51,013 nt of DNA, from IMG/VR virus record IMGVR_UViG_3300020455_000019, positions 1-51,013 of that record; one strand, 5' to 3'. A program made the translations under genes and the position numbers. This DNA comes from a virus. Every line of letters begins with the position of its first letter. The stretch's first letter is position 1. The notes below the pieces were generated by a model. That model was not told where the DNA came from. It ran no database searches and was given only the letters and a program-made list of their open reading frames with translations. This document shows, piece after piece, positions 1-51,013 of this stretch.

Positions 1-53
1 GAATCTCGCCACTGAAGTATGTCTCCAGCACGAACTTTAGAAGGAATAGTCAT
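1..53 (-). CDS. Small head-connector-like protein, partial (N-terminus only)
   Basis: The ATG lies 6 bases beyond the terminase stop codon and the frame stays open to the window edge, giving about 17 residues that begin MTIPSKVRAGDILQWRD. A short protein starting with an 'IRAGDxxxWxD' pattern commonly sits between the large terminase and the portal in lambda-like phages, where it is thought to belong to the head or head-tail connector. The position fits; the function is inferred from context and too little sequence is present to confirm it. Confidence 0.5.
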   Translation of the reverse strand, partial: MTIPSKVRAGDILQWRD

Positions 54-59
54 GTTTAA

Positions 60-13473: not shown

Positions 13474-14163
13474 TTAAAACAGAAGTGTTTGGGTTGCAGC
13501 AAGATGGCTGGAGTCGTATCTGTAGTTATCACCTTTGGGATATGGTTCTATTTCGTAAGCTAAGTTTCTAAGCATTTCTTTTTTATCCTTTTTTGTTCCT
13601 AGTAGATAAAAGTATCTGTGTTTTCGTGGTCTGTCTTTTAGATATAAATCGTCACCATAAATTGCTTTAAGTTTGTCAATCTTGCCTTTTTCTACTCCTC
13701 TGCCAGCGTGATCCATAACGGAGGCACTATGCAGATGTTCCATACCTTTAATTTTGTAATCAGTGCGTTTAGCGGATAAGCCTGTGTAAATAAAATTGGT
13801 GGCTTGATAAATATATCCGTGGTGATTTAGTGAGGTGTCAGCGTAACTGACTACTACAACAGGGGAAGGGAGTTGTTTGAGTGTGGATGAAACAAAGAAA
13901 CTTAGCGAGTTTTTGGGAAGATTATCGTTGACCACTAATCTATTTAATTCAAGAAAATTATCTTGATAGTGACCATTAAAAGCATGTTTAATTAAGGTAT
14001 GAGCAACAGGTCTGCCATAAGAGCAGATGCCAAGAAGTGAGTTGTTTTCATATAAGCCAAAAGCGTATGAGATGGATGGGATTCTTTTTGCGTAGTGCTT
14101 ATGTAGAAACCATTCCTTACATTCTTGATTCTTAATTTTTAGAACTTTATAATTTTTTATCAC
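13474..14163 (-). CDS. Mom-like DNA modification protein (GNAT-type fold)
   Basis: 229 residues. HKHYAKRIPSISYAFGLYE (21-39), LELNRLVVNDNLPKNSLSFF (71-90), VVSYAD (104-109) and GYIYQATNFIYTG (116-128) follow the conserved blocks of phage Mu Mom. Mom modifies adenine in DNA to protect it from host restriction. It overlaps the 14160-14600 gene by 4 bases, so the pair may act together. The resemblance is clear; the actual base product and substrate are not shown by sequence. Confidence 0.78.
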   Translation of the reverse strand: MIKNYKVLKIKNQECKEWFLHKHYAKRIPSISYAFGLYENNSLLGICSYGRPVAHTLIKHAFNGHYQDNFLELNRLVVNDNLPKNSLSFFVSSTLKQLPSPVVVVSYADTSLNHHGYIYQATNFIYTGLSAKRTDYKIKGMEHLHSASVMDHAGRGVEKGKIDKLKAIYGDDLYLKDRPRKHRYFYLLGTKKDKKEMLRNLAYEIEPYPKGDNYRYDSSHLAATQTLLF

Positions 14164-33700: not shown

Positions 33701-36700
33701 GCAGAGCCAGAAGTATTACCATTTACATTTCCAGTTAAATTTCCAACAAAAGTAGTTGTCGTTAAAGTTCCAGTCGAAGGATTGTAAGTTAAAGCAGAAT
33801 CTGTTTCAGCACCCTGAGAACCAGTAGCTGCATCTACAAAAATCGGATAAACAGTTTCATTGGTTGTGTTATTTGCAGTGACCGTGAATTGTGTTGCGAG
33901 TGCTGCTGTACCTGAAGTATTTTGATCGCCAGCAGAGTTGACTCCAGGCAGATCAATATTTGCTGAACCATCAAAGCTAACTCCACCTATTGTTCTAGCA
34001 GTTGCCAAAACCGTTGCTGTCGCTGCATTTCCTGTTGTATTTTGGTCGCCAGTAGTATTAACGCCTGGTAAATCTATATTTGCTGAACCATTAAAACTTA
34101 CTCCTCCTATCGTTCTTGCAGTTGCAAGTGTTGTTGCTGTATCTGCGTTACCCGTTAATGCTCCAGTTACATCTCCAGAAATTGTTCCACTTACAGTTAA
34201 AGCAGTAAGAGTCCCAACCGAGGTAAGAGAACTTGCAACAACATTAGAAGCAAGTGTCGTTCCAGTTAAATCAGCAGCAGCCGTATTAGTTGTATCAGTT
34301 GCCCATTCAAGAGTCGTAGCAGTCGATCCAGCTTTAAGCACTTGACCTGTTGTAGGAGGAGCCGCAGGTAAAGATATTGTGTAACTAGATTCTGAACCTT
34401 TATCAGTAGCTCCTTTAATTCCTATATAAGCAGTTCCATTACTATCAGCTTCAAAGAAACGAACTTCTTTATCGTTATCAACTAAAAGATTATCTGTAAG
34501 TGTCCCACCAGTTGTAGGCAAAGCAGCATCAGCAGTTGTTTGTGCAGCATCAGCAGCATCCTTAGCTGTCTTTACAGCAGCAGGGGTAGCAGCCGTAGTA
34601 GTGCTTGTGCTATCTGCTGCGTTTGTTAATTGAAGAACACCAACGGCACTTGTTGTTCCAGTAGCAATTTTTGATCCTGTAATTGCAGCAGATCCAGATA
34701 TATCAGCATCAACAATGACTCCAGCAGTAATTGAAGTAACACCTGCATTTGTTATTGCTATATCACCTGTAATCGAGACTGCTACCGCATCATCATTTGC
34801 GTCTCCAACAAGAAGTTTAGCCGATTCTAAATCAGCTAATTTTGTAAATGCAATTCCAGCACTAGCATTTATATCTGCATTAACAATCGTTCCATCAGCA
34901 AGCATTGTACTTGTAACTGTTCCACTGTCTCCAGATGTAATTACTGTTCCCGTTATGTCTGGCAAAGTGATTACTTTGTCTGATGTCGTTGGATCGGCAA
35001 CAGTTAATGTTGTTTCAAAAGCATCTGTTGTATCACCTTCAAATACAAGACTTCCTGTATTCGCAATTAAAATTTGACCTGTAACAATGCCGCCTGCTTT
35101 CGCTATTTTTTCACTTGCTACCTCTGCTATAGCATCTTGAACATTGGTAGCAGAAACGCCATCAACACCACTACCACTTGGAGAATAAGTAATATTAGTC
35201 GCAATTTGTCCTGCAACTGTTGCTGATAGATCAATCTCTTGCCAACTACTACTGGTGGAAGAAGTTGTAACACCCAAGATGTAATCTGGTGGAGCAAAAT
35301 CCTGTTGTGGAGCAGGAGCAGAAGGGTAACTTCCTGAAGTGTTTCCTACAGATATAACGACATATAAACCATCAGTATTAGCACTTGGAGTGGGAAGATT
35401 GGAACCAACAGTCAAACCACTTGAAATTCCTTCAGAAGTGCAACTAATCATTTGAGATGTTGCAGCGTTATATGTTCCCCCAAAACGCAAACTACCTTTC
35501 GTTAACGTAGTTATTGCCTGCCACGCTGTACCGTCAAAAATGTATGCATCTTCTGCAACAGTATCAAACAGAATTTGACCATTGAATTGTGCTGTTGGGA
35601 ATCCGCTTTGAGCAATAGATTGGAATATTGTTGTAGAAGAATTACTTAACTTATTACCGTCAATAGAATTTGCCGCAATTCGTGCTGCTGCAACAGTTCC
35701 TGAAGTCAATAATGTTGCACTGTGATTAGGTAAATCACTAGCTAAAAGACTTGTTAAATCTGTAACTAGACCTTTTGCATTAACTGTAACTTTTATCCCT
35801 GAACCTGCTGTTACGCCTGAATCAGCAACTGTAATTGCACCGTTTGAATCAACAGAAAGTGGACCTCCCGTTGGCACAGAAACAGCACCTACAGCACTAG
35901 CAGTTGCAAGAGGTAAATCTGAAGCAGCTAACGATCCTGTTCCTGTTACTTGCCCGAAATTATTGAAAGTAACTTTGACCGCTGTAGCTCCAGTCGTTGT
36001 TGCTGCAATAGATAATGCACCTGTTCCTGTAACTGTTAAACCACCTGCTGTAGGGACAGAAACACCACCAACGGCAGTAGCAGTTGAAACAGGCAAATCG
36101 CTTGGCAACAGTGCAGTTACAGCGGTTATTAAGCCCTGAGCGTTATAGCTAATTCCAGCACTTGTTCCAGCAGAAATTGTATTGTTAATTCCTAATTTTC
36201 CAGACGCAACATTTAAAGATCTATCAAGATCACTTGTAAGAAGCTTGGCTGCTGTAACCGTTCCATCAGTAAGCTTTGCTCCACTTATTCCACTAGCAAT
36301 TTTTGCATCAGTAACTGAACCCGCAGCAATTTTTGCAGTTGTTACAGAAGTTGCACCTAAAGCAAGCGTATCAACAGCCCCTGCTCCAATTTTGGCTGCT
36401 GTAACAGCGTCATCGGCAATTTTTACTGTTGTCACAGAAGCAGGGCCAAGACTATTGGTTTCAATTACCCCTGAGAACTTGGCTGCTGTGACGGCTCCAT
36501 CAGCAATCTTGGCAGTTGTTATTGCTGCATCAACGACAGCAGCAGTATCTACAGCATTATCAGCAAGTTTTGCTGCTGTAACTGCATTAGCCTCAATTTT
36601 TGCAGATGTAACAGCATTATTTGCTATGGCTGCTGTATCAACTGCATCATCAGCTAGTTCACTAGCTGTTATGGCATTAGCGGCTATTTCAGACGATGTA

Positions 36701-39516
36701 AGTGAATCACTTGCAATTTTTGTTCCATCTATATCTCCAGCCGACAAACTTAATTTATTTGCAGTAATTGTTGCGTTAGCTATCTTTGCTCCTGTTACTG
36801 CAAAGTTTGTTATAGCCGCTGTGTCCACTGCATCGTCTGCAAGTTCTGAAGCACCAACTGCATTTGCAGCGATCTCGCTTGCCCCTACAGAATCAGCAGC
36901 TAGTTGAGTTGCTGTGATCGTGCCAGTAGCAATATTTGCGCCTTCAATTGTTGCTGCTGCTATCTTTGCTCCTGTTACTGCGTCATCTGCTAAAGCATTT
37001 GTATCAACAGCATTGTCTGCAAGCTCGCTAGCACCTATCGCATTGGCTGCTATCTGATTTGCTGTAATTGAATTACTTGATATCTTTGAACCTGCAATAT
37101 CACCATCAGCAAGGTTTAACTTATTTCCTGTAATAGTTGTATTAGCAATCTTTGCTCCTGTTACAGCTAAGTTAAGAATGGATGCTGTATCTACAGCGTC
37201 ATCAGCTAATTCTGAAACACCGATAGCATTAGGAGCTATCTCATTGGCAGTAAGAGTATTAGCAACAATATTTCCTGCTGCAATTGTTGTTGCTGCAATA
37301 TTGGCCCCAGTAATAGTTGTTGCAGCTATTTTTGCCCCAGTGACAGCATCATCAGCTATGGCAGCAGTATCTACGGCATTATCAGCCAATTCACTTGCAC
37401 CTATAGCATTAGGAGCTATCTGACTAGCAGTTAAAGAATTAGAACCAATTTTTGCACCAGAAATATCACCATCAGCAAGATTTAATTTTGCATAAGTAAT
37501 AGTTGTATTAGCTATCTTTGCTTCTGTCACTGCAAGGTTTGCAATTGCATTGGTGTCAACAGCATCATCAGCTAATTCAGACGCACCTATTGCATTAGCA
37601 GCTATTTCTGAAGCAGTAATTGTATTAGCAATAATATTTGCTGCTCCTATTGTTGTTGCAGCTATTTTTGCCCCAGTAATAGTTGCAGCAGCTATTTTTG
37701 CTTCTGTTACAGCTAAATCTGCTAACTCTGTCGCACCAACAGCACCAACAGCAATCTTTGCGTTCGTAACAGCGTCATCACCCAATTTAATTGTACTAAC
37801 TGCATTACTAGCCAGTTCTGTTGTACCTACAGCTCCAGAAGCTATCTGTGTTGTTGTTATTGCACCTGCACCAATTTTCGCACTAGGGATATCTCCATCA
37901 GCAAGATTTAATTTCGCATAAGTAATTGAACCATCTACAACTTCATTTGTCCCTACTGCATTTGCAGCTATTTGACTACTACCAACAGAATTTGCAGCAA
38001 GCTCTGTTGATGTAATAGTTCCAGTAGCAATCTTTGCCGCTGCGATTGTCCTATCAGCAATTTTCGCTCCTGTTACAGCCGTCGCCCCTAGCTCTGTAGT
38101 GCCAACAGCTCCAGAAGCAATCTTTGCAGCAGTTACAGCATCATCAAGAATTGAACCTGTATCTACAGAATCATCTGCTAACTCACTAGCACCTACTGCA
38201 TTAGTTGCTATTTGAGTTGCTGTAATTGTATTATCTGCAATCTGAGTTGCGGTAATAGTGTTATTAACAAGTTTTGAGCCAGTAATCGTTGTTGTTGCAA
38301 TCTTTGCTCCTGTTACAGCCAAAGCAAGAATTGCATTTGTATCTACAGAATCATCTGCCAACTCTGAAGTACCTATAGCATTAGGAGCTATTTGATTTGC
38401 AGTTAAAGAATTAGGTGCAATTTTCGCTCCTGCAATATCACCATCAGATAAATTTAATTTTGCATAGACAATAGTTCCGTTAGCAATCTTGGCATTGGTG
38501 ACAGCAGCATCAATAATCGCATTTGTATCAACAGCATCGTTTGCTAATTCACTTGCTCCTACAGCATCAGCAGCTATTTGACTATTACCAACAGAGTCAG
38601 CAGCAAGTTGAGTAGCTGTAATTGTATTAGCAGCAATATTTGCAGCCGTAATTGTTGTACTAGCTATCTTGGCTCCAGTAACAGCCGCTGCTCCTAAAGC
38701 TGTTGTATCGACAGCACCAGCCGCAAGTTTTGCAGCAGTTACAGCATCATTAACAATTGCGTTTGTATCAACTGCCTCATCTGCTAACTCTGAGGCGGTA
38801 ATCGCATTAGCAGCGATTTGAGTAGATGTAAGGGTATTATCAACAAGCTTTGCTCCTGTAATAACACCATCAGTAATTTTAGATGCGGTAACAGAATTAG
38901 CTGCTAACTTTCCTGTCGTAACAGCAATATTAGCTATTGCATTTGTATCAACAGCATTATCAGCCAATTCACTTGCACCTACAGCATCAGCAGCTATTTG
39001 TGTTGACGTAATTGAATTATTAGCAATTTTTGCTCCAGGTATATCTGCATCAGCAAGGTTTAACTTGGTGGAATCAACAGCACCTGCAACTATTTTGTCA
39101 CTTGTTACAGCATTATTAGCAATAGAAAGAGTATCTACGGCGTTATCAGCTAATTCACTTGTACCAATTGCGTTAGGAGCTATTTCTGCCTCTGTGATTG
39201 CATTAGATGCTATTTGTGTCGCCGTAATCGCTCCTTCAGCTAACTCACTTGCTCCAACAGCCCCTGCTAAAATCTTAGCTGCTGTTATCGCATTATCAGC
39301 TATAGCCGCTGTGTTAACAGTATCAGTACCAAGACTCGCTAAAGCAGAACCAGGAATCGAACCAGCATCAATTAACGCAACCCCTTTTTCAATTAAAGCT
39401 TTTGCTGTTATTCGCTTGGTTTCTGATGCGCTATCATCAACTACGGCTAATTCATCAACTGCCGCTAAATCTGCCTCCGCTAATGCAGGCAATTGACTTA
39501 TTTGAAGATCAGCCAT
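30763..39516 (-). CDS. Giant repeat tail fiber, 2917 residues
   Basis: The largest gene in the window. After a short head (LQISQLPALAEADLAAVDEL), residues about 65-1100 are a long series of imperfect ten-residue units of the type ITAAKIAxxA / VGASELADxA. Later come T4/P2-fiber-like repeats (ATVLATARTIGGVSFDGSAN; about 1780-2100), then four or more copies of a module with TTINNNADNRIITGS and NGSNLTxLSAANI (about 2270-2800). The C-terminus is short and has no intramolecular chaperone motif. A repeated beta-structure fiber for host contact is the natural reading. The frame is open throughout, which is notable given so much repetition. Confidence 0.82.
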   Translation of the reverse strand: MADLQISQLPALAEADLAAVDELAVVDDSASETKRITAKALIEKGVALIDAGSIPGSALASLGTDTVNTAAIADNAITAAKILAGAVGASELAEGAITATQIASNAITEAEIAPNAIGTSELADNAVDTLSIANNAVTSDKIVAGAVDSTKLNLADADIPGAKIANNSITSTQIAADAVGASELADNAVDTNAIANIAVTTGKLAANSVTASKITDGVITGAKLVDNTLTSTQIAANAITASELADEAVDTNAIVNDAVTAAKLAAGAVDTTALGAAAVTGAKIASTTITAANIAANTITATQLAADSVGNSQIAADAVGASELANDAVDTNAIIDAAVTNAKIANGTIVYAKLNLSDGDIAGAKIAPNSLTANQIAPNAIGTSELADDSVDTNAILALAVTGAKIATTTITGSKLVNNTITATQIADNTITATQIATNAVGASELADDSVDTGSILDDAVTAAKIASGAVGTTELGATAVTGAKIADRTIAAAKIATGTITSTELAANSVGSSQIAANAVGTNEVVDGSITYAKLNLADGDIPSAKIGAGAITTTQIASGAVGTTELASNAVSTIKLGDDAVTNAKIAVGAVGATELADLAVTEAKIAAATITGAKIAATTIGAANIIANTITASEIAANAIGASELADDAVDTNAIANLAVTEAKIANTTITYAKLNLADGDISGAKIGSNSLTASQIAPNAIGASELADNAVDTAAIADDAVTGAKIAATTITGANIAATTIAAGNIVANTLTANEIAPNAIGVSELADDAVDTASILNLAVTGAKIANTTITGNKLNLADGDIAGSKISSNSITANQIAANAIGASELADNAVDTNALADDAVTGAKIAAATIEGANIATGTITATQLAADSVGASEIAANAVGASELADDAVDTAAITNFAVTGAKIANATITANKLSLSAGDIDGTKIASDSLTSSEIAANAITASELADDAVDTAAIANNAVTSAKIEANAVTAAKLADNAVDTAAVVDAAITTAKIADGAVTAAKFSGVIETNSLGPASVTTVKIADDAVTAAKIGAGAVDTLALGATSVTTAKIAAGSVTDAKIASGISGAKLTDGTVTAAKLLTSDLDRSLNVASGKLGINNTISAGTSAGISYNAQGLITAVTALLPSDLPVSTATAVGGVSVPTAGGLTVTGTGALSIAATTTGATAVKVTFNNFGQVTGTGSLAASDLPLATASAVGAVSVPTGGPLSVDSNGAITVADSGVTAGSGIKVTVNAKGLVTDLTSLLASDLPNHSATLLTSGTVAAARIAANSIDGNKLSNSSTTIFQSIAQSGFPTAQFNGQILFDTVAEDAYIFDGTAWQAITTLTKGSLRFGGTYNAATSQMISCTSEGISSGLTVGSNLPTPSANTDGLYVVISVGNTSGSYPSAPAPQQDFAPPDYILGVTTSSTSSSWQEIDLSATVAGQIATNITYSPSGSGVDGVSATNVQDAIAEVASEKIAKAGGIVTGQILIANTGSLVFEGDTTDAFETTLTVADPTTSDKVITLPDITGTVITSGDSGTVTSTMLADGTIVNADINASAGIAFTKLADLESAKLLVGDANDDAVAVSITGDIAITNAGVTSITAGVIVDADISGSAAITGSKIATGTTSAVGVLQLTNAADSTSTTTAATPAAVKTAKDAADAAQTTADAALPTTGGTLTDNLLVDNDKEVRFFEADSNGTAYIGIKGATDKGSESSYTISLPAAPPTTGQVLKAGSTATTLEWATDTTNTAAADLTGTTLASNVVASSLTSVGTLTALTVSGTISGDVTGALTGNADTATTLATARTIGGVSFNGSANIDLPGVNTTGDQNTTGNAATATVLATARTIGGVSFDGSANIDLPGVNSAGDQNTSGTAALATQFTVTANNTTNETVYPIFVDAATGSQGAETDSALTYNPSTGTLTTTTFVGNLTGNVNGNTSGSAGSCTGNAATATALVSSVNIGGVAFDGTASINLPGVNAAGDQDTTGNAATATALANARTIGGTNFDGTANIDISYSNLTNKPTIPTNNNQLTNGANFITSSGTSAACSGNAATASLATEFTVTANNSTDETVYPLFADGATGSQGAETDTGLTYNPSTGLLTSTGFSGVGTSLTALDADNITAGTVDAARLGSGSSITTKFLRGDNTWQTVSATPEGTAILSTGESGGTKFLREDGDGTCSWQDVPAGVTINNQADNRIVTATGTTNTLNGEAGLQFDGSSLQISSTNNAKMHLKGSNDPEIIWYEGTASKMFLAWRADGYAYLHNYEHSTSIKVGSNFTWYDGSSDQTIVHQGNVGSSGALSSSAIHAASLTLSGDLTVNGTTTTVNSTTVEVADKNIELGKVASPSDTTADGGGLTLKGATDKTFNWVNSTDAWTSSEDIQVATGKKFIGDVTGSVSGTSGGFTAGSASNLNAGTVPIDRLGSSGTASSSTFLRGDNSWQTISGTTINNNADNRLITGSGTTGELNGEANLTFDGSTVEINTTTHEKISLKGSNSPKINFYDGSTSKAYLSYSNSGLVELYNGHQNTGLIVSNLFVWYDGSAQQRVIHEGNVGSGGDLSGKNVYVNEIHGDGSNLTDLSAANIASGGTLPALNGSNLTNISATDSTKLLLSGGTLTGNLTMTGGDLTISNSASHKIYIRGHDNPVILDVFNASGTQVYYQHYYNSQMWFWQAINNRGLKFPASSSDDYEVYTSSNNWATLLTDLNVGSGGKLSSKNVYVNQIHGNGSNLTSLSAANITSGGTLPALDGSNLTNLPSSGGTTINNNADNRIITGSSSSNTLEAESNFTFTSGSATITATNPELELNDAAGANKVSLQYYTNDNKVYLWNNHSSSGGGISFASASTTCQWFNGTSHSDMLHQNNVGSGGALSSEEVYVSKIHAASVASSANGMRRITTSTSAPSSTTGFADGDLYIVYS
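36200..39330. repeat. Decapeptide-coding repeat tract
   Basis: Roughly 100 imperfect 30-base units coding for ten-residue motifs (A-V-D-T-x-A-I-x-x-x, A-V-G-A-S-E-L-A-D-x). Units are degenerate at the DNA level, so this is old repetition kept by selection rather than recent slippage. The antisense frames in this tract look open for long stretches only because of the repeated codons. Confidence 0.78.
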
Positions 39517-41314: not shown

Positions 41315-44300
41315 TTAAAAAAGTTCAGGGAAACGAGAATTAAAATGACTATCAGAAGGATTTGTGTACCGTAGAACGCTCATGTAACCACTGTCATCAA
41401 ATGGAACATGACTTGCTGCAATTTTAATAAAGCCCTCCTCTCCATGAGTAATTGATTCAATCTTATACAACCGATCTTCAGTCGTATCATCAAGCACTGT
41501 AAATAAACTACCTTTTAAAGCACCTCCAGTTGTTCCACTTCCGTCAAAATAAAAACTACCAAATTGAACACCATTTTCTGTTTCTGGCTTCCAATAATAA
41601 ACTTTTTGAACACCACTTATGGTTTCACGACTAATAATATTGCCTTCATCATCAACACTTCCATTCTTAAATCGACTTGTATGAGTAGCTTCAGTCATTA
41701 CTCGTATATAATCCCCAGCGATTAATTTTAAAACAGAAATCGGTGTTGTTTCAAACGAAATACCATGATCAACATCTTTGCGTGTGACTAAGGCAAAAGC
41801 AGCAAATTTTTTCGCATGATTTTCATTACTACACCATCCACTCATATCAAACACTTCTTCAGGAAGTGCTTCTGCATTACTGTAAAACTCCGAATCTGAT
41901 AGTCCTGGCTTTCTATAAGCAAAAGTTTTTGCTTTGTTTTCTGGAAAACCATCGATTTCATCTTGTCTATATATAACAGTTGCTTTAAACATTTTTCTTT
42001 CTTCTGGAGTTAAAAAAGTAACCTGTAAATCTTTAATATTCCCGTCAGTAAATAATCCTTTTACCTCACTCTCCATCTGAGATTTAGTGATGTTATATCT
42101 TATAGGACCGCCATCACCAATAGTAGGGAAACTTGGCCTTAAGCTAAATTGACCACCAACGACACAAAAATCTAAGAAACAATAACCAGCATTTTGAAAA
42201 ATAAATTCTCTTATATTGAATTTTTTATCAATAATACCGTTCCATCTAAACTGATTTTGCCTGCAATAACGTGCAGCTTCTTGCATGTCATCTACCTTTA
42301 CTGCTTTTATTCCTGCTATATCGCCAGCCCCATAGTCAGTATTAGTTAATAAGTCATAAACTATTTCAACAATATTATCGGTTGATTCAAAATAACTACT
42401 TAGTCCTGTTTGAAGATCAATAGTCGTATCTGTGCCATTATCATTAATTAACCTTTGAACTTTTATACCTTCTTCGATATGACAAGACAAAGAACTAAAT
42501 TGATTAAAGTTTACTCCCGCAGCAATTCTTAATCCTCCAATTGCAAGTTTTTCATAATTAATGTTGGCTGTCGCACTTGTCTCTCCTTCATCAATTATTT
42601 CGTTAACATGAGTAATTTCATGCTCAGATCCATTTTCATGACTGGATGATTCCGTGTCATACATGAAATAATCGGCTATAGCGTTATTAGGATTTGTATC
42701 TCTTTGATCATAGAAATATGTTGTATGAGAAGAATTGTTTGAAAAATTAGTATCCCCTGCATCTTGATCAAATTGTTCATCAGGGTCTACAAACGGCTCT
42801 CCTGCGGTTAATGTAAAATTCCTTCCAGATCCATCAGATATTTGAACTTTATCACCCGTTAGATAACCTTTCCCCGAATAACCATCTTGTATTTCGTAAG
42901 TTGTATAAGAACGAGCCTGATTATCATCATTTGTCCATGATTTTACAGATTTAGTAATTTTCAAACTCTCTCCATTTGTATCCCCCACCTGAGTCACATC
43001 ATGGTGAGTAACTACAACTTCAGGCTCAGTTCGATCTTGGAATTGCACTGCAATCGCATAATAATTTACTTTTACTCCATCAGTGTTTTTTTGATATCTC
43101 CAGTCTGGGCCTGTACCATTCCTCACTGGATTTCTAGCCCTTCTAAAGCGATGCCAAATACCAGTAGGATTCCCGTCCTTATCAAACTCTTCTATTGCAG
43201 TCGTCCACATATCAGCGTATGTACCACCATCTATCGCATCTACTTCAAAAGTTGGGTTTTTGCCAACAGGGATAAGTGTGCCGCCAAACCAATATTGCCA
43301 TCGTGTTCGACCACCACCAATAAAAGTTTCAGTCAATGCAATACCATGATAATGACTAAAATATGAGTTATGACCAAGGATAGTCTTCTCTACACCATCC
43401 TCTATTGTCCCAGGATTTCCTTTGAAATTTCTTACCATAGGACTACTTTGAAAATATGATCCCGATGAGTTTGATGTCACGGTGGGACGACCCCAGTTGC
43501 CATAATTTGCCCCGTTTGGGTCTGGTCCAGGCCCAGTTCCCCAATAAACATAATCATTTAATTCAGGATTTGTTCCATCTCTATTCCAAGGTTCACCATT
43601 AACATTATTTATAGCAGGTGTTACTTGTGGAGGCTCAAAACTATCCTGCTTCCAATCAAAAGCGGGAGCAGACCAATTGTCTTCACCAATTGATTTAGGA
43701 CTGATAGCAGTAACAGGTGTTCCTGCTGCAACAGGATTGCCTGAATCATCCGTAATATAACCAGACCCTAAACCGCCTCTAACCCATTCAATATTGTTAG
43801 TAACTCCATTTCCGGCACCTACAAGTGATCTGCTCGGAAGTGTTTCAGTCTGAGCATGAAAATAAGCTGAAGCGGTAACAGTAATTACGTTTGCATCATT
43901 TCTTAACTGAAAGCTAGTAGTATGCAATTTTCCCCCATAACTCAAAACATAAAAATCTCTATCCGTATAATGATTTAAAACAACATTTCCAGGTACAGGT
44001 AAGAAACGATATTCAAGTGGTTTTTTGTTTATATGTTTTATATTAATTGAATTATATTGAGGTTGATTTGTAGAGCCTTTTACACAAAAAACTCGACTAC
44101 ATACATCCGTCCAACTAACTTTCTCTGCATCAGTATTTAAAATTTTTGCTTGTAATTTAAAGAAACTTAAACGAGTAACATATTTACTAATTGATCCCAC
44201 AGAAATAGTGCCACCGTCTTTCTCATAAGAAACAATTCTTTCTCTGCTAGGAACTTCATTTAAGTTTGCATTACCAGAGATCTGTCTCCAAACCGTACTT

Positions 44301-45751
44301 TTTATCCCTATTTGAGTTACATCACATTCTCTAGTATTTGAAAACGTAGCAATATCACATTTTTGAACCACTAAACTTTCATAAGGCATCAAAGCATCAG
44401 TTTTGTTTGTGAATCTCATCCAACCACCTTCATCCGTTTTCATCTTGTATCTCTTGCCTTGATATTGCATATTTCCAAACTGATCAGGGACACCATAAGG
44501 TGTCCAAATATTTGCATCTGTTTCTCTGTAGACCGTTGCCAATGCTGAACCAACCATATATTGCTGACCTAAAGCCATATTCGTATCCGTGTCTTCTCTT
44601 GTTGAATCAGCAACAGCCTTTGCATCTCCACTTCCCCAAGGTGAAAATTTATCCCATCTTTGATTTCGATCAGTTGCTCGCTCGTTTATGTTTTCGATCC
44701 AAGCCTCTTCATTTTCTTCTTTATGAATAATTAAATCAAAGTCATGATCTTTCCCTACCTCAACACCAGCACCAACTGGTTTACTAATACTGAGTAAGTG
44801 AACATATCTTGGGAAGAAATGAACCATCTTCTGACGTTTTATTTCTAAATCATCTTTAACTTGTCTACTCATGCCTTCTGAGAACATTAATAATTCCCAA
44901 TTAATTTTATAAGCACTTCCATTTGGCATTGGAGCGTAAACCCCAAATCTTGCGTTGGACACAGGAGTTTTTGCACTTGAAAACGAAGGTTTCCATGTCC
45001 AATTACCATTTGAATTTAAAACCTTGACCATGAAAGGATCATTCTCGTCATATTCTTTGCCGCCACGAACATCATGTGTCTGATTAAATGCCTTACCTCC
45101 ATGATCATCACTACCTTTTAAACGATTTTTTGCACGACCACCCTTAGAAAAATAAAGTTTGAACCTTGACAAAGGAAAAGCATCTAAAAATGATTCACCT
45201 AAAGCAAAACTCTTCAATTGCGGATGTTGACCTAATTCACCCTGAGAAAACAAACAAATAGCGTTAATTTCCTGACCATATTGTGTATCACAAATTCGTG
45301 ACCAAAGAAGTTGACTTGAAACTCTTATCCCATAAGGAGATCTTGCATAAACCAAAGGAATAAAAGAACCTAATACAGCTAAATCTTGTATTGTTTCAAA
45401 TCCACTAACAGGGTTAAATTTACTTCTACCTTGAACACCACTTAACTGTAAATTTGGTCCAGCATTGGGTTCTTTTGGTTTAGGAGTGAGCAAATAAAGA
45501 GCAACATTTATAGCGACACTGACTGCAACTTTTACAAAAAAAGCTTTCCATGTCATCGTACCAACCAGAGTTACAGGATCACACCTAATATCTGGAATTA
45601 ATTCATATCCTTTTCTCGAATCTTTGTGATACTTAAAAGTTAAATCTAAAAACTGTAAATACTCCTTATCAGTTATACCAAGTGCATTACATAGTTCTAT
45701 TTCATAGGGTAATAAAGTTCTAAAACCTCCAAATAGGTTAGAGGACTCCAT
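41315..45751 (-). CDS. J-like tail tip / host specificity protein
   Basis: About 1478 residues from the ATG at 45751 (a TTG at 45781 would add 10 residues). The N-terminal part has a hydrophobic stretch VAVSINVALYLLTPKPKEPN; the C-terminal third (RYCRQNQFRWNGIIDKKFNI, LDFCVVGGQFSLRPSFP, MSGWCSNENHAKKFAAFA) matches phage GpJ-like tip proteins that form the central fiber and contact the receptor. Long beta-rich middle. The position directly after the NlpC/P60-like gene is the lambda K-I-J order without a clear I. Confidence 0.82.
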   Translation of the reverse strand: MESSNLFGGFRTLLPYEIELCNALGITDKEYLQFLDLTFKYHKDSRKGYELIPDIRCDPVTLVGTMTWKAFFVKVAVSVAINVALYLLTPKPKEPNAGPNLQLSGVQGRSKFNPVSGFETIQDLAVLGSFIPLVYARSPYGIRVSSQLLWSRICDTQYGQEINAICLFSQGELGQHPQLKSFALGESFLDAFPLSRFKLYFSKGGRAKNRLKGSDDHGGKAFNQTHDVRGGKEYDENDPFMVKVLNSNGNWTWKPSFSSAKTPVSNARFGVYAPMPNGSAYKINWELLMFSEGMSRQVKDDLEIKRQKMVHFFPRYVHLLSISKPVGAGVEVGKDHDFDLIIHKEENEEAWIENINERATDRNQRWDKFSPWGSGDAKAVADSTREDTDTNMALGQQYMVGSALATVYRETDANIWTPYGVPDQFGNMQYQGKRYKMKTDEGGWMRFTNKTDALMPYESLVVQKCDIATFSNTRECDVTQIGIKSTVWRQISGNANLNEVPSRERIVSYEKDGGTISVGSISKYVTRLSFFKLQAKILNTDAEKVSWTDVCSRVFCVKGSTNQPQYNSINIKHINKKPLEYRFLPVPGNVVLNHYTDRDFYVLSYGGKLHTTSFQLRNDANVITVTASAYFHAQTETLPSRSLVGAGNGVTNNIEWVRGGLGSGYITDDSGNPVAAGTPVTAISPKSIGEDNWSAPAFDWKQDSFEPPQVTPAINNVNGEPWNRDGTNPELNDYVYWGTGPGPDPNGANYGNWGRPTVTSNSSGSYFQSSPMVRNFKGNPGTIEDGVEKTILGHNSYFSHYHGIALTETFIGGGRTRWQYWFGGTLIPVGKNPTFEVDAIDGGTYADMWTTAIEEFDKDGNPTGIWHRFRRARNPVRNGTGPDWRYQKNTDGVKVNYYAIAVQFQDRTEPEVVVTHHDVTQVGDTNGESLKITKSVKSWTNDDNQARSYTTYEIQDGYSGKGYLTGDKVQISDGSGRNFTLTAGEPFVDPDEQFDQDAGDTNFSNNSSHTTYFYDQRDTNPNNAIADYFMYDTESSSHENGSEHEITHVNEIIDEGETSATANINYEKLAIGGLRIAAGVNFNQFSSLSCHIEEGIKVQRLINDNGTDTTIDLQTGLSSYFESTDNIVEIVYDLLTNTDYGAGDIAGIKAVKVDDMQEAARYCRQNQFRWNGIIDKKFNIREFIFQNAGYCFLDFCVVGGQFSLRPSFPTIGDGGPIRYNITKSQMESEVKGLFTDGNIKDLQVTFLTPEERKMFKATVIYRQDEIDGFPENKAKTFAYRKPGLSDSEFYSNAEALPEEVFDMSGWCSNENHAKKFAAFALVTRKDVDHGISFETTPISVLKLIAGDYIRVMTEATHTSRFKNGSVDDEGNIISRETISGVQKVYYWKPETENGVQFGSFYFDGSGTTGGALKGSLFTVLDDTTEDRLYKIESITHGEEGFIKIAASHVPFDDSGYMSVLRYTNPSDSHFNSRFPELF

Positions 45752-46068
45752 TGAACTGTCGTCTTTACGAATGATAGCCAACCGCCTTTCCAGTAAACAG
45801 CCATACCATAGCCTTTTTCTGCTTTACACAGAGCTACAACACCAATATTAGCGGTTGTTGTCTGTCTTCCCCACCTTTTTAATTCATCACGAAACACCTC
45901 ATAATCTTTTTGCCTTAAACGCCTATACCAAGATCTTGGTGGCTCTGGGCTTTCAATGCCATAATTTCTTAAAACTTCTCTAGCCAGACTTAGACAATCT
46001 GCTGCCTTATGCTTGTCAGGTGTTGCGCCTAAACGATAAGGCAAACCCAAAAGCAATTCAGTTTTCAT
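45697..46068 (-). CDS. NlpC/P60-like tail protein (lambda K position), possibly inactive
   Basis: 123 residues. Starts as the family does: LPYRLGATPD, then KAADCLSLAR with the expected catalytic Cys25, and PPRSWYRRLR. The second half (NIGVVALCK, GMAVYWKGGWLSF) fits the fold, but no His is present where the catalytic dyad needs it. It may be a structural remnant or use another residue. Overlaps the J-like gene and the 46065 gene (4 bases). Confidence 0.66.
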   Translation of the reverse strand: MKTELLLGLPYRLGATPDKHKAADCLSLAREVLRNYGIESPEPPRSWYRRLRQKDYEVFRDELKRWGRQTTTANIGVVALCKAEKGYGMAVYWKGGWLSFVKTTVQWSPLTYLEVLELYYPMK

Positions 46069-46598
46069 TTGGTTCTTATATTTCCTGTTACTGGTAAATG
46101 ACCAACTAATGAACTTGTTAAAAATCTTCCAATATTTCCACCAACAGCATCAACACCTGTTGAAAGCATTATTTCTATAGTTGTTGCATCGTATCCCATT
46201 GAAGTAACAGTCCAACAATCAGTTGAGATCGTATCTTCAACAATCGTAAACGCTGTATTCATTTTACAAATATGGACATAAACACACCAACTCTTATCAA
46301 CAGCATCATGTGCATAATTCATAGACAACTTACTATAAGTAGAAGTTCCATCTCTTAACGTACTTGTATTTGATAAGACTAAAGTAGCTTCAAGATTATC
46401 TCCACTTTTAGATTGTGTTGCACCTGAATAAAGGAAACTTAGATATTTATAAACACCAGTTCCAAAAACAGGACTATTAAAAGAAATTCCAGCCCTGGTT
46501 GGCTCTGAGTTTTGAAACCTTTCTTCTGGCCCTAAAGCTCTTAGCTTTTTAGGATCATAAAAATCAATAAAAACAGATATTGGAACTAAACCTGACAT
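46065..46598 (-). CDS. Minor tail protein (lambda L/M position)
   Basis: 177 residues. ISVFIDFYDPKKLRALGPEE, AGISFNSPVFGTGVYKYLSF and a final FLTSSLVGHLPVTGNIRTK. The 'GRFL ... GxLPxTG' ending recalls small distal-tail proteins encoded after tape measure genes. ATG overlaps the NlpC-like gene; its own start overlaps the tape measure stop by one base. Position-based assignment. Confidence 0.6.
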   Translation of the reverse strand: MSGLVPISVFIDFYDPKKLRALGPEERFQNSEPTRAGISFNSPVFGTGVYKYLSFLYSGATQSKSGDNLEATLVLSNTSTLRDGTSTYSKLSMNYAHDAVDKSWCVYVHICKMNTAFTIVEDTISTDCWTVTSMGYDATTIEIMLSTGVDAVGGNIGRFLTSSLVGHLPVTGNIRTK

Positions 46599-49500
46599 TA
46601 GATTCCTATCCGTGATCTAGCGGAACGACTATTTTGTAATGATCTTAGCGTTCTTGTCTCTCCCCTTGAAGCACCTTGGTTTGCAGCCTCATTAATAATG
46701 CTACTAACAGCAGATCTTGGTACATATTCATCACCGTTAAAGTTTAATGTTGGCCCTGTGTAATTCACGGTTGTTGCACCACCGCCACCGCCTTGCATTG
46801 CAACCCCAAGTCTTCCACCTCTTCCTCTTTGCAGCGGTAAAATTGCCTCTGGGCCAGCCTCGCCCATGATCCCTAGTTGTGAACCGCCATACTTAAACAT
46901 GGTGGGTTTGCTAACAACACCGCCTTTGTAATAAGGAACAATACCGTTCTTAGCAAATGCGTTGCCTTTTGCACTCTTAATTAATTTCATATCTTTTAAA
47001 GCATCACCCAATACATCGCCTGCCTGCGTACCAACAGAAGGCGCACCTATGTTACCTAAAGCAGAAGTTAAAATACCGAACAATGGTTTGGTGATTGTTT
47101 GTCGAATCATTAATCTTGCTAAATCGGCAAGGACACTTCTTACTAAGTCTTTAATTGCAAGTTTTCCTGTTTGAACAAACTGCAATATTGAATCTTCTAA
47201 TTTCTTAAATCCATTTACTGCTACCTGTTCAAGTGCGTCATCAAAATTCTCTAATTCTTTTGCAAACTTAGCGAATGGTGAATCTCCTCCTTCGCCACCC
47301 CCAAGTAGAGCATCAAATTCCTTCTTTAGTTTCGCTAAATCTTCCGTACTACCATTTTGAGATTTCCTATAGTCTTCAATAGCTTCAGTTAATGCAGCAT
47401 ATTCTTCTTTTAATTTTGCAATTTTATTAATTCTGGAAGCTTTACCAGCTTTACTATCATTATTTTCCAGTTCTGTAATTTTTCTTTGAATATCTAATCT
47501 TCTCTTAAATACTTTATTCACATCTTCTTCAGTAGCTGAACCATCATTTAATTTTGCAATCAATCTATCTTGTGCTGTAGCAAATCTATGAGCAGCAATT
47601 GCAGCAGCAGTAAGACCAGCAGCTAAAGCAACATAAGGATTAGCGTATGCAGCAATATTTGCTTTGATCTGAGCAAGAGTTAAAGCCTTTAGCCCAATTA
47701 TAAATTTAACAATTTGTGCAATTACTAGCTTTAAATCCCATGCGATTAAAGCAATCTTAAATTTCAAAGCTGAAATAGCCGCTGCTGCCATCGCACCTCC
47801 AACTACTGCTGTAACAGATGCAAACTCATGGAAATTATCAATAACAAATCGAACAACTCCAGCCAACGCTCCAAATACTTTAGCTGCAATATTGCCAACA
47901 AAAGTAAGTGATGGAACTAATGCAGTCAGTAATTCTGCGCCAATGATTTGGAATTGCGCTCCAACATCTTTTAACGAACCACCAACTGCAATCTTCATCT
48001 TATTCATTGCAATTTGCGCTCTTGCGCCTGCCTCTTCATTTGACTCTGCAATCTTCCTTGCTAATGGTTCATATTCTTTTCCTAAGCTTGTAATAAACTT
48101 ACTTAGCATGTCTAATCCTACTGTTCCATCTTTAAGATTTTTCTGTAATTCTTGCGTAGAAATATCATTTGCTTTAGCAAACTTTGTTACTGCCGCTGGA
48201 AATCTTTCACCCAATTGTCCACTTAATTCCTCCGCAGATACCTTGCCCTTACTGAAGATTTGCACCATTGCAGTGATCGCAGATTTAACATCATCTGCAC
48301 TACCAGCAGTACCTTTAATTGCAACTGTTGTATTCAAAAATGCTTCGGTTGCGTTATGAATATTTCCACCAGCACCTAAAACAGCAGCACTCAATCTTGT
48401 CATTCCTCGTATCGCTACTTCTTGCGGTACGTTGTAAACTTCAACTGCTTTTGTAATAGCAGCTTGTGCTACTTCATAATTTTCTGTTGTTTTAGTTATT
48501 CCTCTTAATGCAATATTTGCCTTCTCAATTTGTGAAGCATATTCAGTAGAACCACCAATCGCTTGAGAAACTGGTGTCAGAACTTGACTAGCGACAAGAC
48601 CACCAGTAATCGCACCGCCTGCCATGTCACCACCAGGCCGTAACGCTTCAATACCAGCACCGATACCTGCACCTAAGAAACCAGCAGGGCCGCCAACGAA
48701 TCCAGCACCTAATATTGACTGTCCTGTTCTTCTTAAGTTTTGACCGCTGAATTTGTTTGAATTTAGCCTTGTCAACGCTTTATCTGTATTAGCAATAGCT
48801 TTTGTTGCTCTCCTAAACGAAGCAGACGCAGGATCTAAACCATTTCTAATCTCATCTAGTTTTGATCTTTGTTTTGTAAGACTATTAATATTTTTATTTT
48901 GTAATTTAGTAGAATCTGCAACTCTTACTAAATACTCATCTAAACTTTCTACTGTTTGCTTTATTCCAGAAGATTGTTTAGAAGCAAAACCTGCATCATA
49001 GACAGCTAACGCACCAGCCTTCCCTACACTTGTTTGTCCAGCAGCAGGCAACGCTTTCATCGTTGTAACTCTTGTTTTTAGCTTTTCGTTTGCTTCAGAT
49101 AATATTTTTGATAGCTCTTTATCTTTTTTAATTATAAGTTTTGAAGTTTCAACCCACTCTTTTCCACCAATTTTTAAATTTTTTAAATCTGCTCCTAAAT
49201 CTTGTATTTCAGCAGCATAACCAGCTTCTGTCTTTGGATAACTAAGAGATTGGCCTAATCCAAACTTATCTTGCCTAGATATTTTGCCAAATTTACTAAT
49301 TGTTTCTTGAACTTTTGATTCTTGTCCACCTCCTGCAAAAAATTGATCAAAAGAAGGGAATTTTAAACCAAATTTATCTCCTCTAGTTGTTGTTGAATAT
49401 CCAGTTCTTGACTTTAAATATTCAGACTCCATCCCTTTGTAAGTAGGAGATGGCAATCCAACCATCGCCATTACGTTTTGGAACTGTTGAGCTAAAGGAG

Positions 49501-50494
49501 ATTTATCTCTAAAAGCTCTAGTCGATGGGCCAGGAAAAGTCTGACCTCCAAAATAAGTAGCACCTATTGATGGGCCTAAAGTATCGGCTCTAGCATCTTG
49601 GAAAACTTTTGATCTTGCTCTACTTTCTTGAAACCTTATAGAAACTTCAGAAGCCCTTGTCTGCGCTTTTGCAAGTGCAATTTGTTCAGCAGCCCTTAAG
49701 TTTTGTTGACCTAAAATCTTTGTGTTTTGACCTTCTTCAGCATTGATTTTTGTAAGAACTTTTAAGTAACTATTTGAAGCAACATCTAAGCCTTGAGTAA
49801 GTCCAAGTGCATCTAATTGAGTTTGATTTAATCTTCCTGTATTTTTAAAATCATCAACATTATAAATAGAACCTCTTCCTGCTCCAACACTTGCTCTATC
49901 TTTAATAAAATCCATCCTGTTGCCAGCAGGAAAACTTCTTCGATCTATAGCTCCTGCTTTTGTATAAGAAACATTATTAAGAAATTTCTGTTGTGCTTCA
50001 CTTAAACTTTCAAAAGTTCTATTAGTAAGCAACAACTGTAAAGACGCAATCCTTTGATTAAAATCAGATTGTGTTCCTGAACCTCTTACATTCTTATCAG
50101 TAAAATAAGAACTACTCATTGCGCCAAAAGTGGCATCTCTGCCTGGGCCTCTTGGTGTTCCTCTTCTGGCTGTGATTTCTTTTTCTAATGCAATGCGCTC
50201 TCTAAGCACATTGTTCATTCCTTTTATATCTGAAGTTAAGGATTGATAAGCTTTCCCTTGGAAATTAGTCCTGTCTCTTAATTTCTCAAATGCTTGTATT
50301 TGCCCTTTTAATCCAGAATTAGTCCTGAAAGTTTCTTTTCCAAACTCTTTAATACTTTTAGCAATATCAATAAAAGACTTATCAGCTTTTTTGCTTCTTT
50401 CTTGTATTACTTGTAAAGCCTTTCCTAAACCCTGAACGTCTTCAAAACCATCAATAACGGCCTTTAGGGTCAGTTTTCCAACTTGTCCTGCCAT
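46598..50494 (-). CDS. Tape measure protein
   Basis: 1298 residues. Long helical coiled segments (e.g. KDKELSKILSEANEKLKTRV), a Gly/Ala-rich hydrophobic tract (FVGGPAGFLGAGIGAGIEAL) and a TP901-type core near 780-870. The C-terminus has the near-universal GEAGPEAILPLQRG. Sets tail length and helps DNA ejection. By the usual rule of about 1.5 angstrom per residue the tail would be about 190-200 nm. AAGGA before the ATG is one of the few clear Shine-Dalgarno sites; the start overlaps the previous stop (TAATG). Confidence 0.92.
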   Translation of the reverse strand: MAGQVGKLTLKAVIDGFEDVQGLGKALQVIQERSKKADKSFIDIAKSIKEFGKETFRTNSGLKGQIQAFEKLRDRTNFQGKAYQSLTSDIKGMNNVLRERIALEKEITARRGTPRGPGRDATFGAMSSSYFTDKNVRGSGTQSDFNQRIASLQLLLTNRTFESLSEAQQKFLNNVSYTKAGAIDRRSFPAGNRMDFIKDRASVGAGRGSIYNVDDFKNTGRLNQTQLDALGLTQGLDVASNSYLKVLTKINAEEGQNTKILGQQNLRAAEQIALAKAQTRASEVSIRFQESRARSKVFQDARADTLGPSIGATYFGGQTFPGPSTRAFRDKSPLAQQFQNVMAMVGLPSPTYKGMESEYLKSRTGYSTTTRGDKFGLKFPSFDQFFAGGGQESKVQETISKFGKISRQDKFGLGQSLSYPKTEAGYAAEIQDLGADLKNLKIGGKEWVETSKLIIKKDKELSKILSEANEKLKTRVTTMKALPAAGQTSVGKAGALAVYDAGFASKQSSGIKQTVESLDEYLVRVADSTKLQNKNINSLTKQRSKLDEIRNGLDPASASFRRATKAIANTDKALTRLNSNKFSGQNLRRTGQSILGAGFVGGPAGFLGAGIGAGIEALRPGGDMAGGAITGGLVASQVLTPVSQAIGGSTEYASQIEKANIALRGITKTTENYEVAQAAITKAVEVYNVPQEVAIRGMTRLSAAVLGAGGNIHNATEAFLNTTVAIKGTAGSADDVKSAITAMVQIFSKGKVSAEELSGQLGERFPAAVTKFAKANDISTQELQKNLKDGTVGLDMLSKFITSLGKEYEPLARKIAESNEEAGARAQIAMNKMKIAVGGSLKDVGAQFQIIGAELLTALVPSLTFVGNIAAKVFGALAGVVRFVIDNFHEFASVTAVVGGAMAAAAISALKFKIALIAWDLKLVIAQIVKFIIGLKALTLAQIKANIAAYANPYVALAAGLTAAAIAAHRFATAQDRLIAKLNDGSATEEDVNKVFKRRLDIQRKITELENNDSKAGKASRINKIAKLKEEYAALTEAIEDYRKSQNGSTEDLAKLKKEFDALLGGGEGGDSPFAKFAKELENFDDALEQVAVNGFKKLEDSILQFVQTGKLAIKDLVRSVLADLARLMIRQTITKPLFGILTSALGNIGAPSVGTQAGDVLGDALKDMKLIKSAKGNAFAKNGIVPYYKGGVVSKPTMFKYGGSQLGIMGEAGPEAILPLQRGRGGRLGVAMQGGGGGATTVNYTGPTLNFNGDEYVPRSAVSSIINEAANQGASRGETRTLRSLQNSRSARSRIGI

Positions 50495-50838
50495 TACTTA
50501 GAGTCCTTGTTAATTTCTTTTAATGCTGCTGCTTCCATAACCTTTAGGTCTTCAAGCATTGCAACACGGTTCTCTACATTGTATAGCTCAAACAAACCTC
50601 CTGCACCTAATAAAACTTCATATTTCAAGCCAACAAAACCACTCATGGAAACATTCCATTGAGTTTGCATCCTCAAAAACATTAATACTGTTTCCCAGTT
50701 CTGTTCCCACACAACGCATCCTTTCTCTTTCTCTTCAGGCTTCTCAGGCAGTTTAATACCAAATATCTTGGCATCTTCATCTGCCTGTTTTTCTGATTCG
50801 CTGCCACCCGAAGCCCAATAAAGAGCAGCATCAGTTAG
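50494..50838 (-). CDS. DUF1799-type C-terminal extension, reached by -1 frameshift (GT part)
   Basis: The frame opens with no ATG: a GTG at 50712 is possible, but the residues before it (LTDAALYWASGGSESEKQAD) read as coding and continue from the slippery site at 50838. The C-terminal part (WEQNWETVLMFLRMQTQWNV, GFVGLKYEVLLGAGG, EDLKVMEAAALKEI) matches DUF1799. In lambda-like tails the frameshift product (gpG-gpT) bridges the chaperone to the tape measure; the same is inferred here. Ends as TAATG on the tape measure start. Confidence 0.82.
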   Translation of the reverse strand, partial: LTDAALYWASGGSESEKQADEDAKIFGIKLPEKPEEKEKGCVVWEQNWETVLMFLRMQTQWNVSMSGFVGLKYEVLLGAGGLFELYNVENRVAMLEDLKVMEAAALKEINKDSK

Positions 50839-50844
50839 TTTTTT
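50793..50844 (-). promoter_or_regulatory. Programmed -1 frameshift signal
   Basis: Slippery heptamer A AAA AAC (50844-50838, read in the chaperone frame GAA AAA AAC) directly before TAA (50837-50835). A stem of CTGATGCTGC (50834-50825) with GCAGC-GA-ATCAG (50804-50793) closes a 20-base loop 3 bases after the heptamer. Heptamer plus downstream stem is the standard layout of a stimulated -1 site. Confidence 0.82.
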
Positions 50845-51013
50845 TCGTCAGCCGTTGCATAGAAAGTTTGAAATGCTTTTACTATTCCTTGAACAAAATC
50901 AACATCTTCTGAAAAATCTTTCAAATTTTTTTGGCTAAAAGGAATATCTTTATCTTCTTCATCTTTTATGTCTGACCAGCCAACAATGATTGATTTTAAA
51001 GCGTCATAATCTT
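50835..51013 (-). CDS. Tail assembly chaperone (G part), partial at window edge
   Basis: The last 58 residues of a phage tail assembly chaperone: IIVGWSDIKDEEDKDIPFSQ is the typical 'GW..I.DE.G..IPFS' block, followed by an acidic helix and ATADEKN. The start lies beyond the right edge. Its final codons sit in the AAAAAAC heptamer, so a fraction of ribosomes is expected to continue in the -1 frame. Confidence 0.82.
   Translation of the reverse strand, partial: DYDALKSIIVGWSDIKDEEDKDIPFSQKNLKDFSEDVDFVQGIVKAFQTFYATADEKN

Follow-up and report, generated by a model that had tools for sequence, protein, structure and literature searches.

Genes and features at the right edge of the record

The locus lies on the minus strand at the right edge of a 51,013-base IMG/VR virus record (IMGVR_UViG_3300020455_000019), the whole of which was analysed and is called the window here. 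The 3' part of a tail assembly chaperone gene (the G frame, frame 0) occupies 50835..51011, comprising 58 codons and a stop, and is cut by the window edge. On the minus strand the frame reads GCT GAC GAA AAA AAC TAA at its end, and a first-pass annotation of this DNA had given the last four of these codons in the same form. The slippery heptamer, A AAA AAC, occupies 50844-50838, and TAA, the 0-frame stop, lies directly 3' of it at 50837-50835. A -1 slip leads into LTDAALYWASGG... and on through a T-like extension (50494..50838, minus strand) of 114 codons and a stop. The same annotation had given this frame 115 open codons; the frame is indeed open, and the count was corrected to 114 from the slip point, or 117 from the previous stop. 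The extension terminates at 50496-50494 in TAATG, overlapping the ATG of a gene for a 1298-aa protein (46598..50494, minus strand) that was assigned to the PHROG tape measure families. The tape-measure gene thus stands directly downstream of the cassette, and the tail-tube side lies beyond the window; the records of Sweeny, T1, MED16, Silvanus and HK578 carry an annotated major tail protein on that side.

The extension matched the DUF1799 profile (PF08809) over its residues 42-109 (50512..50715, minus strand) with an E value of 4.5e-12 and a score of 46.5 bits, compared to a curated cut-off of 26. This bears out the earlier description of a DUF1799-like domain without an ATG of its own: no ATG precedes the domain, and the earliest one in the -1 frame lies within it, 155 nt past the stop. 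The earliest possible start of any kind was a GTG at 50712, 125 nt past the stop and one codon within the DUF1799 match, which begins at 50715. The predicted structure of the extension had a pLDDT of 70.6.

The motif AAAAAACTRA occurred once in the whole 51,013-base record, and in-phase A AAA AAC or G GGA AAC was found at 2 of 14,059 codon positions (rate 0.00014) in 36 larger, hand-picked open reading frames. When the two ends of the record were joined, the chaperone G frame did not continue, and the record was therefore taken as a fragment. Its left end (window 1-59) lies just beyond a terminase gene and its right end (51013) cuts the chaperone, so that at least the chaperone start is missing, and probably the head and tail-tube genes as well.

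Three further genes of the record were observed, all on the minus strand. The product of the gene at 13474-14163 strongly matched phrog_1384 (E 4.9e-58), a Mom-like DNA modification protein, suggesting that the phage may modify its own DNA. An open reading frame of 2917 aa at 30763-39516 is tail-fibre-like, with many repeated matches to tail fibre families (18 stretches of phrog_892). A large tail-protein open reading frame at 41315-45781, if read from its first TTG, overlaps the preceding gene (45697-46068) by 85 bases.

Identity of the upstream part

To characterize the upstream part, we compared it with protein families and predicted folds. The chaperone fragment in the record matched phrog_313 (3.5e-4) and phrog_569 (5.9e-4). 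Among 46 full-length chaperone relatives, all matched phrog_569, and 35 matched PF08748 (Phage_TAC_4) at E<=0.1, with a best value of 2.3e-6; at that threshold, the PF08748 match was absent in the closest full-length relative, L006. A model of the L006 chaperone (pLDDT 65.5) matched viral predicted structures in a BFVD fold search, the best named match being the tape measure chaperone of Klebsiella phage Solomon (E 2.4e-4), followed by weaker matches to the tape measure chaperones of Ec_L1 and Scapp. The fold search returned no good PDB match for this model, and a sequence search of the chaperone and extension alignments against PDB chains returned nothing useful. By family and by predicted fold, the upstream part is a tail assembly chaperone.

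We also observed that the two chaperone halves fall into phrog_569 and phrog_680. Both families go by the name 'tail length tape measure protein', a label that the T1 and K50evo11 records bear as well. For the two PHROG families this looks like a mislabel.

The slip site and stop are conserved in viral relatives

To examine the junction in relatives, we scanned viral contigs with the fused protein, which yielded 181 relatives (the best 80 of 181 kept), and with a profile of the extension, which yielded 570 relatives (80 of 570 kept, nine contigs being shared with the first set) together with 4 relatives in genomes. Since the search patterns of the extension profile sit at least 50 codons downstream of the slip site, this second scan did not select for the site. 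In the first set, a heptamer followed immediately by a 0-frame stop was found in every one of the 80 junctions examined, the window's own and those of 79 loci (AAAAAAC in 25, GGGAAAC in 55), and locus L066, outside this count, likewise reads GGGAAAC TGA. In the second set, the same arrangement was found in 81/81 junctions (GGGAAAC in 65, AAAAAAC in 16). The downstream part lies in the -1 frame throughout both sets.

We pooled the two sets (less one conforming locus, L132) and added junctions from three named phages and from a further three genome loci, giving 166 junctions, of which 121 carry GGGAAAC. Nine IMG/VR contigs stand twice among the 166, and thinning by shared 8-mers to 60 sequences, the window included, was meant to remove repeats. 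All 60 non-redundant junctions have the heptamer (GGGAAAC in 43, AAAAAAC in 17) with the stop at the same place directly after it (TAA in 39, TGA in 20, TAG in 1). These results demonstrate that the slip site is real and strongly conserved. The A-rich heptamer had been remarked upon as unlike the GGGAAAG of lambda; the difference holds, and the peculiarity does not, the A-rich form being usual for the DUF1799 chaperone family.

The same junctions bear on the suspicion that a misassembled or missequenced A run has split one gene into two frames. A homopolymer run in a metagenome contig invites it, yet over 150 distinct contigs, isolates and genomes show this split, and 121 of the 166 pooled junctions carry GGGAAAC. 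The GGGAAAC relatives rule such an error out, and we assign it a negligible probability.

They also bear on whether the DUF1799 part could be a separate protein, translated by coupling or re-initiation at a start codon of its own, as its annotation as an own gene in the S-CBS1, RC1, phiAH14a, MED16 and HK578 records would suggest. A -1-frame ATG within 60 nt of the stop was present in only 3 of the 60 sequences and a start with a Shine-Dalgarno-like site in 1, and the first start in the window comes only 125 nt downstream, where the domain match has already begun. Neither the phase of the heptamer nor the wobble covariation described below would, moreover, be needed for a separate gene, and we consider this reading highly improbable. 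The first-pass annotation had proposed aligning the junction in related phages and had named homologues with separate parts and a good start as contrary evidence. The alignment revealed the -1 overlap and X XXA AAC kept in relatives and a start codon mostly absent, rather than that arrangement.

In loci L022-L031, a marine clade, the site reads AAG GAG GGA AAC, a Shine-Dalgarno-like string that runs into G GGA AAC. This string is probably too near the heptamer for the usual role of an upstream stimulator.

Hold-out genomes and named phages

To assess the arrangement outside these sets, we searched for the DUF1799 family in 369 and 385 genomes from two bacterial classes, of which 10 and 18, respectively, had a match. 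After removal of known loci, 28 hold-out loci in 26 genomes remained, one of them below the family cut-off and some of them probably close relatives of one another. An in-phase A AAA AAC or G GGA AAC ahead of a -1 DUF1799 frame was present in 24 of the 28 loci; the stop follows the heptamer immediately in 19, after 3 nt in 3, and after 21 and 27 nt in the remaining two. A AAA AAT with an abutting stop was present in one further locus, and three (two of them in one genome) have no such heptamer. Some hold-out loci possess starts before the DUF1799 domain. Elsewhere in the upstream frames of 25 hold-out loci and eight named phages, neither heptamer occurred at any of 4,283 in-phase codon positions. 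These counts indicate that the heptamer type is a trait of the family and that the abutting stop, outside the marine group, is common and not fixed. In one hold-out locus, L203, eight A precede the C and the stop, and this locus could combine polymerase and ribosome slippage.

Additionally, we examined 13 records of DUF1799 type, 12 of which were chosen from two sets of records, one of them comprising 783 phage records with a similar place, and one of which, T1, was taken by accession. The heptamer with an abutting stop was found in 11 of the 13 (T1, MED16, Smarc2, Silvanus, HK578, K50evo11, ESP2949-1, S-CBS1, RC1, R656 and phiAH14a), and the extensions of all 11 scored above the DUF1799 cut-off. 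The other two depart from the motif: Klebsiella phage Sweeny reads GCA AAA GTT TAA, and Pectobacterium phage Ymer has GGGTTTG 9 nt before the stop. Frameshift products were already annotated in the Sweeny, Smarc2 and Silvanus records.

Codon usage at the junction points to tandem ribosome slippage

Tandem slippage requires that a codon's wobble base be the same as the two bases that open the following codon. In all 60 non-redundant sequences, the codon preceding the last two codons of the heptamer has A as its third base where AAA AAC follows and G where GGA AAC follows. The silent wobble base of the Ala and Glu codons at this place segregated with heptamer type as 12:0 against 0:16, with a nominal p of 3e-8 that, the 60 sequences being kin, is not that of independent draws. 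The last codon before the stop was AAC in 60/60, compared to 36 of the 110 Asn codons found in the rest of these frames. A wobble base that switches with the heptamer points to tandem tRNA slippage.

These data also address the proposal that the fusion arises from RNA polymerase slipping on the A7 run, with one A added, instead of from the ribosome. The window does carry an A7 run, and a published study describes a 7-A cassette that gave 10% frameshift product in E. coli, with poly-A length correlated with yield (PMC3711429). In 43 of the 60 non-redundant sequences, however, GGGAAAC stands at the same place and in the same phase; these versions, having no A run, argue against polymerase slippage as well as against homopolymer error. 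The wobble base covaries as tandem re-pairing predicts, and polymerase slippage needs no folding after the site, yet such folding was seen (below). We regard polymerase slippage as an improbable source of the fusion, although in the window itself, as far as the sequence can tell, it may contribute a share.

A Shine-Dalgarno-like stimulator was sought as anti-SD pairing 4-24 nt upstream of the site and compared with synonymous shuffles. The results showed no selection for such pairing (mean z -0.27 over the 60 sequences), and the upstream anti-SD duplex in the window had an energy of -1.7 kcal/mol.

A hairpin directly downstream of the slip site

Directly past the slip site lies a predicted hairpin, H1 (50793..50834, minus strand), in which CTGATGCTGC (50834-50825) pairs with GCAGC (50804-50800) and ATCAG (50797-50793). 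The stem proposed at first pass was recovered in every particular: 10 pairs, one 2-base bulge and a beginning 3 nt past the heptamer. Its inner 5 bp (GCTGC/GCAGC, 50829-50825 with 50804-50800) are conserved in kind, and its outer 5 bp (CTGAT/ATCAG, 50834-50830 with 50797-50793) are specific to the window clade, although several close relatives lack intact pairing there. The stem differs in register between clades, from GCTGC/GCAGC with the outer CTGAT/ATCAG in the window clade to GCYGC/GCGGC in others. The spacer had been called shorter than usual. The outer stem does begin at 3 nt, but the inner stem opens 8 nt past the heptamer, which probably leaves nothing anomalous in the spacing.

In the window alone, H1 was not distinguishable from chance: the 54-nt stretch folded at -13.2 kcal/mol (z -1.51), a value matched by 16 of 200 dinucleotide shuffles, and z was -1.02 against protein-keeping shuffles. 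Four sequences were folded singly; among them L036 and L060 reached z values of -2.8 and -2.9, and L022 did not take the expected stem (z +0.17). Across the 60 sequences, folding directly past the slip site was stronger than in shuffles that keep protein and codon use (mean z -1.29). This was replicated in 33 loci outside the 60, namely those with a heptamer and a stop within 30 nt among the 28 hold-out loci and eight named phages (36 in all), where the mean z of -1.74 was the lowest among 34 positions. Silent third positions agreed with the stem: where they face a fixed G, a pyrimidine was found in 54/55 cases at the first Ala codon and 43/51 at the second, compared to 248/471 Ala codons elsewhere, and in 115/122 Gly codons compared to 318/445 elsewhere. 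The support for the predicted stem is comparative.

A second hairpin and a tentative pseudoknot

About 50 nt downstream of the site, we identified a second predicted hairpin, H2 (50745..50787, minus strand), formed by CAGGCAG/CTGCCTG (50787-50781 with 50751-50745) and GATGCCAA/TTGGTATT (50775-50768 with 50762-50755). This region gave the strongest folding peak of the 60 sequences (mean z -1.77). In the window, the 48-nt stretch with H2 folded at -19.0 kcal/mol (z -3.16 against synonymous shuffles), and in the window clade two of its pairs showed changes on both sides. In the 33 other loci, H2 was weak (mean z -0.45 to -0.72). The predicted hairpin H2 is a mark of the window's virus group.

The loop of H1 (50818-50810) can also pair with a stretch 3' of H2 (50743-50735), giving a tentative helix within 50735..50818 (minus strand). 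The 3' signal might accordingly be a pseudoknot in which this loop-tail helix joins H1 and H2, with a hairpin inserted in the last loop; such an element would add to the frameshift reading. The strength of the H2 peak fits a pseudoknot, and so do the pairing of 93% of cells of the helix in the window clade and the folding of its segment pair (mean z -0.75 over 55 sequences; window -2.22, neighbouring pair -3.32). On the other hand, that segment pair ranked 9 of 171, the helix was 72% paired in clade B and showed one covarying pair only (UA/UG/CG), and it draws on an invariant Trp codon and common Pro codons. It can, moreover, be a plain stem that excludes H1, as in the minimum-energy fold of 125 nt of the window, and the weakness of H2 in other loci counts against it too. 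With one covarying pair and a rank of 9 among 171, the pseudoknot is only tentative, and we consider it possible but rather doubtful.

We further compared the structure of H1, H2 and the loop-tail helix with slid controls in hand-picked clade alignments; as the structures were drawn from folds of the same sequences, they are favoured over these controls. In the window clade (24 sequences), 95.1% of cells were paired, compared to 26-48% when slid, and shuffles reached the covariation score in 3/500 cases and the number of pair types in 305/500. In clade B (24 sequences), 86.5% of cells were paired, compared to 35-63% when slid, and shuffles reached the covariation score in 0/500, the both-side changes in 461/500 and the pair types in 194/500. 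In clade C (12 sequences, H1 and H2 only), 92% of cells were paired with no covariation, a level reached by 500/500 shuffles, which speaks neither for nor against the structure. Naive mutual information over 66 aligned sequences was dominated by relatedness and gave no usable helix. A third, weaker folding peak was observed in the extension of relatives about 150-200 nt past the slip site (mean z -1.16 at offset 151).

Interpretation and relation to known systems

Taken together, the evidence makes it very probable that the cassette of this sea-water phage directs a programmed -1 ribosomal frameshift yielding a lambda-like pair of tail assembly chaperones. The G and GT reading put forward at first pass is supported by comparison across relatives, through the heptamer in 60/60, the -1 overlap and the lack of a start. 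Most ribosomes would terminate at the TAA next to A AAA AAC and release a short G protein of the Phage_TAC_4 type. In a minority, both tRNAs would slip back by one base and pair again on the heptamer, and translation would continue through the DUF1799 part to yield a GT fusion, with the stem 3-8 nt past the heptamer as the likely stimulator. By analogy with lambda, G would coat the tape measure, the T part would recruit tail-tube subunits, and the G:GT ratio would be set by the frequency of slipping. The yield may be small, as one study lists both AAAAAAC and GGGAAAC as low-efficiency motifs in E. coli (PMC4066793).

The gene order of the record agrees with that of lambda, in which the tube gene is followed by G, the T extension and the tape measure, with a -1 shift near the end of G on X XXA AAZ. 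Lambda differs in that its site is GGGAAAG with the G stop 15 nt further on, whereas the record has A AAA AAC with the stop immediately behind it and an extension of DUF1799 type. The founding paper is reportedly that of Xu, Hendrix and Duda in 2004. According to another paper, the T part of lambda binds the tail-tube protein and the G part the tape measure (PMC5009743).

Closer counterparts were found among DUF1799-type phages. Phage T1 (Drexlerviridae) has GCA AAA AAC TAA ahead of a -1 DUF1799 frame, like the record, although it is distant in sequence and each half is entered in its own record as a protein by itself. For Silvanus and Sweeny, the annotation already includes a frameshift product of a tape measure chaperone with a DUF1799 extension. 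The 'pre-tape measure frameshift protein' of Serratia phage Smarc2 likewise includes a DUF1799 extension, annotated by a join in its record, with GTA AAA AAC TGA at the site, in another host and with distant sequence.

Similar slip sites have also been described in the literature on other phages. Papers report GGGAAAC immediately upstream of TGA in Burkholderia phage KL1, with a stem-loop by mfold (PMC3483164), and AAAAAAC adjoining the stop in Acinetobacter phage Loki (PMC5313236). These are single phages, each described there with an extra gene before the tape measure, and they are likened to the record by slip site. Two papers give AAAAAAC and GGGAAAC as tail chaperone slip sites of phiCbK-like Caulobacter phages (phiCbK/Colossus; PMC3556154), and G_GGA_AAC and A_AAA_AAC as those of haloviruses HCTV-1 and HCTV-2 (PMC5009743). 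These viruses belong to other phage groups.

The mechanism is therefore already known, and what is new here is the family-wide rule. A literature search, with subscription papers mostly outside it, found no statement of a family-wide heptamer-stop rule, and for DUF1799 it found one paper, in which the part is listed as a separate protein. In its fullest form, the proposal is that X XXA AAC TRA acts as a single unit of slip site and stop throughout the DUF1799 chaperones, to which the marine clade adds a two-hairpin, possibly pseudoknotted 3' element; we offer this form as a rather doubtful speculation.

These results indicate that the split is a conserved cassette and not an error, and that annotators should join the two genes, given that in several GenBank records the DUF1799 part stands alone as a hypothetical protein. 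The pattern X XXA AAC TRA, with AAC and not AAG, also offers a natural bacterial case of a stop abutting a -1 slip site. One paper, citing Rous sarcoma virus and barley yellow dwarf virus, considers -1 sites with a stop codon immediately 3' of them and relates that bacterial and human-cell test constructs suggest competition between release factor and slippage when the stop abuts (PMC4373837). As that competition was suggested in constructs, the phage cassette could be used to test the question in a natural setting.
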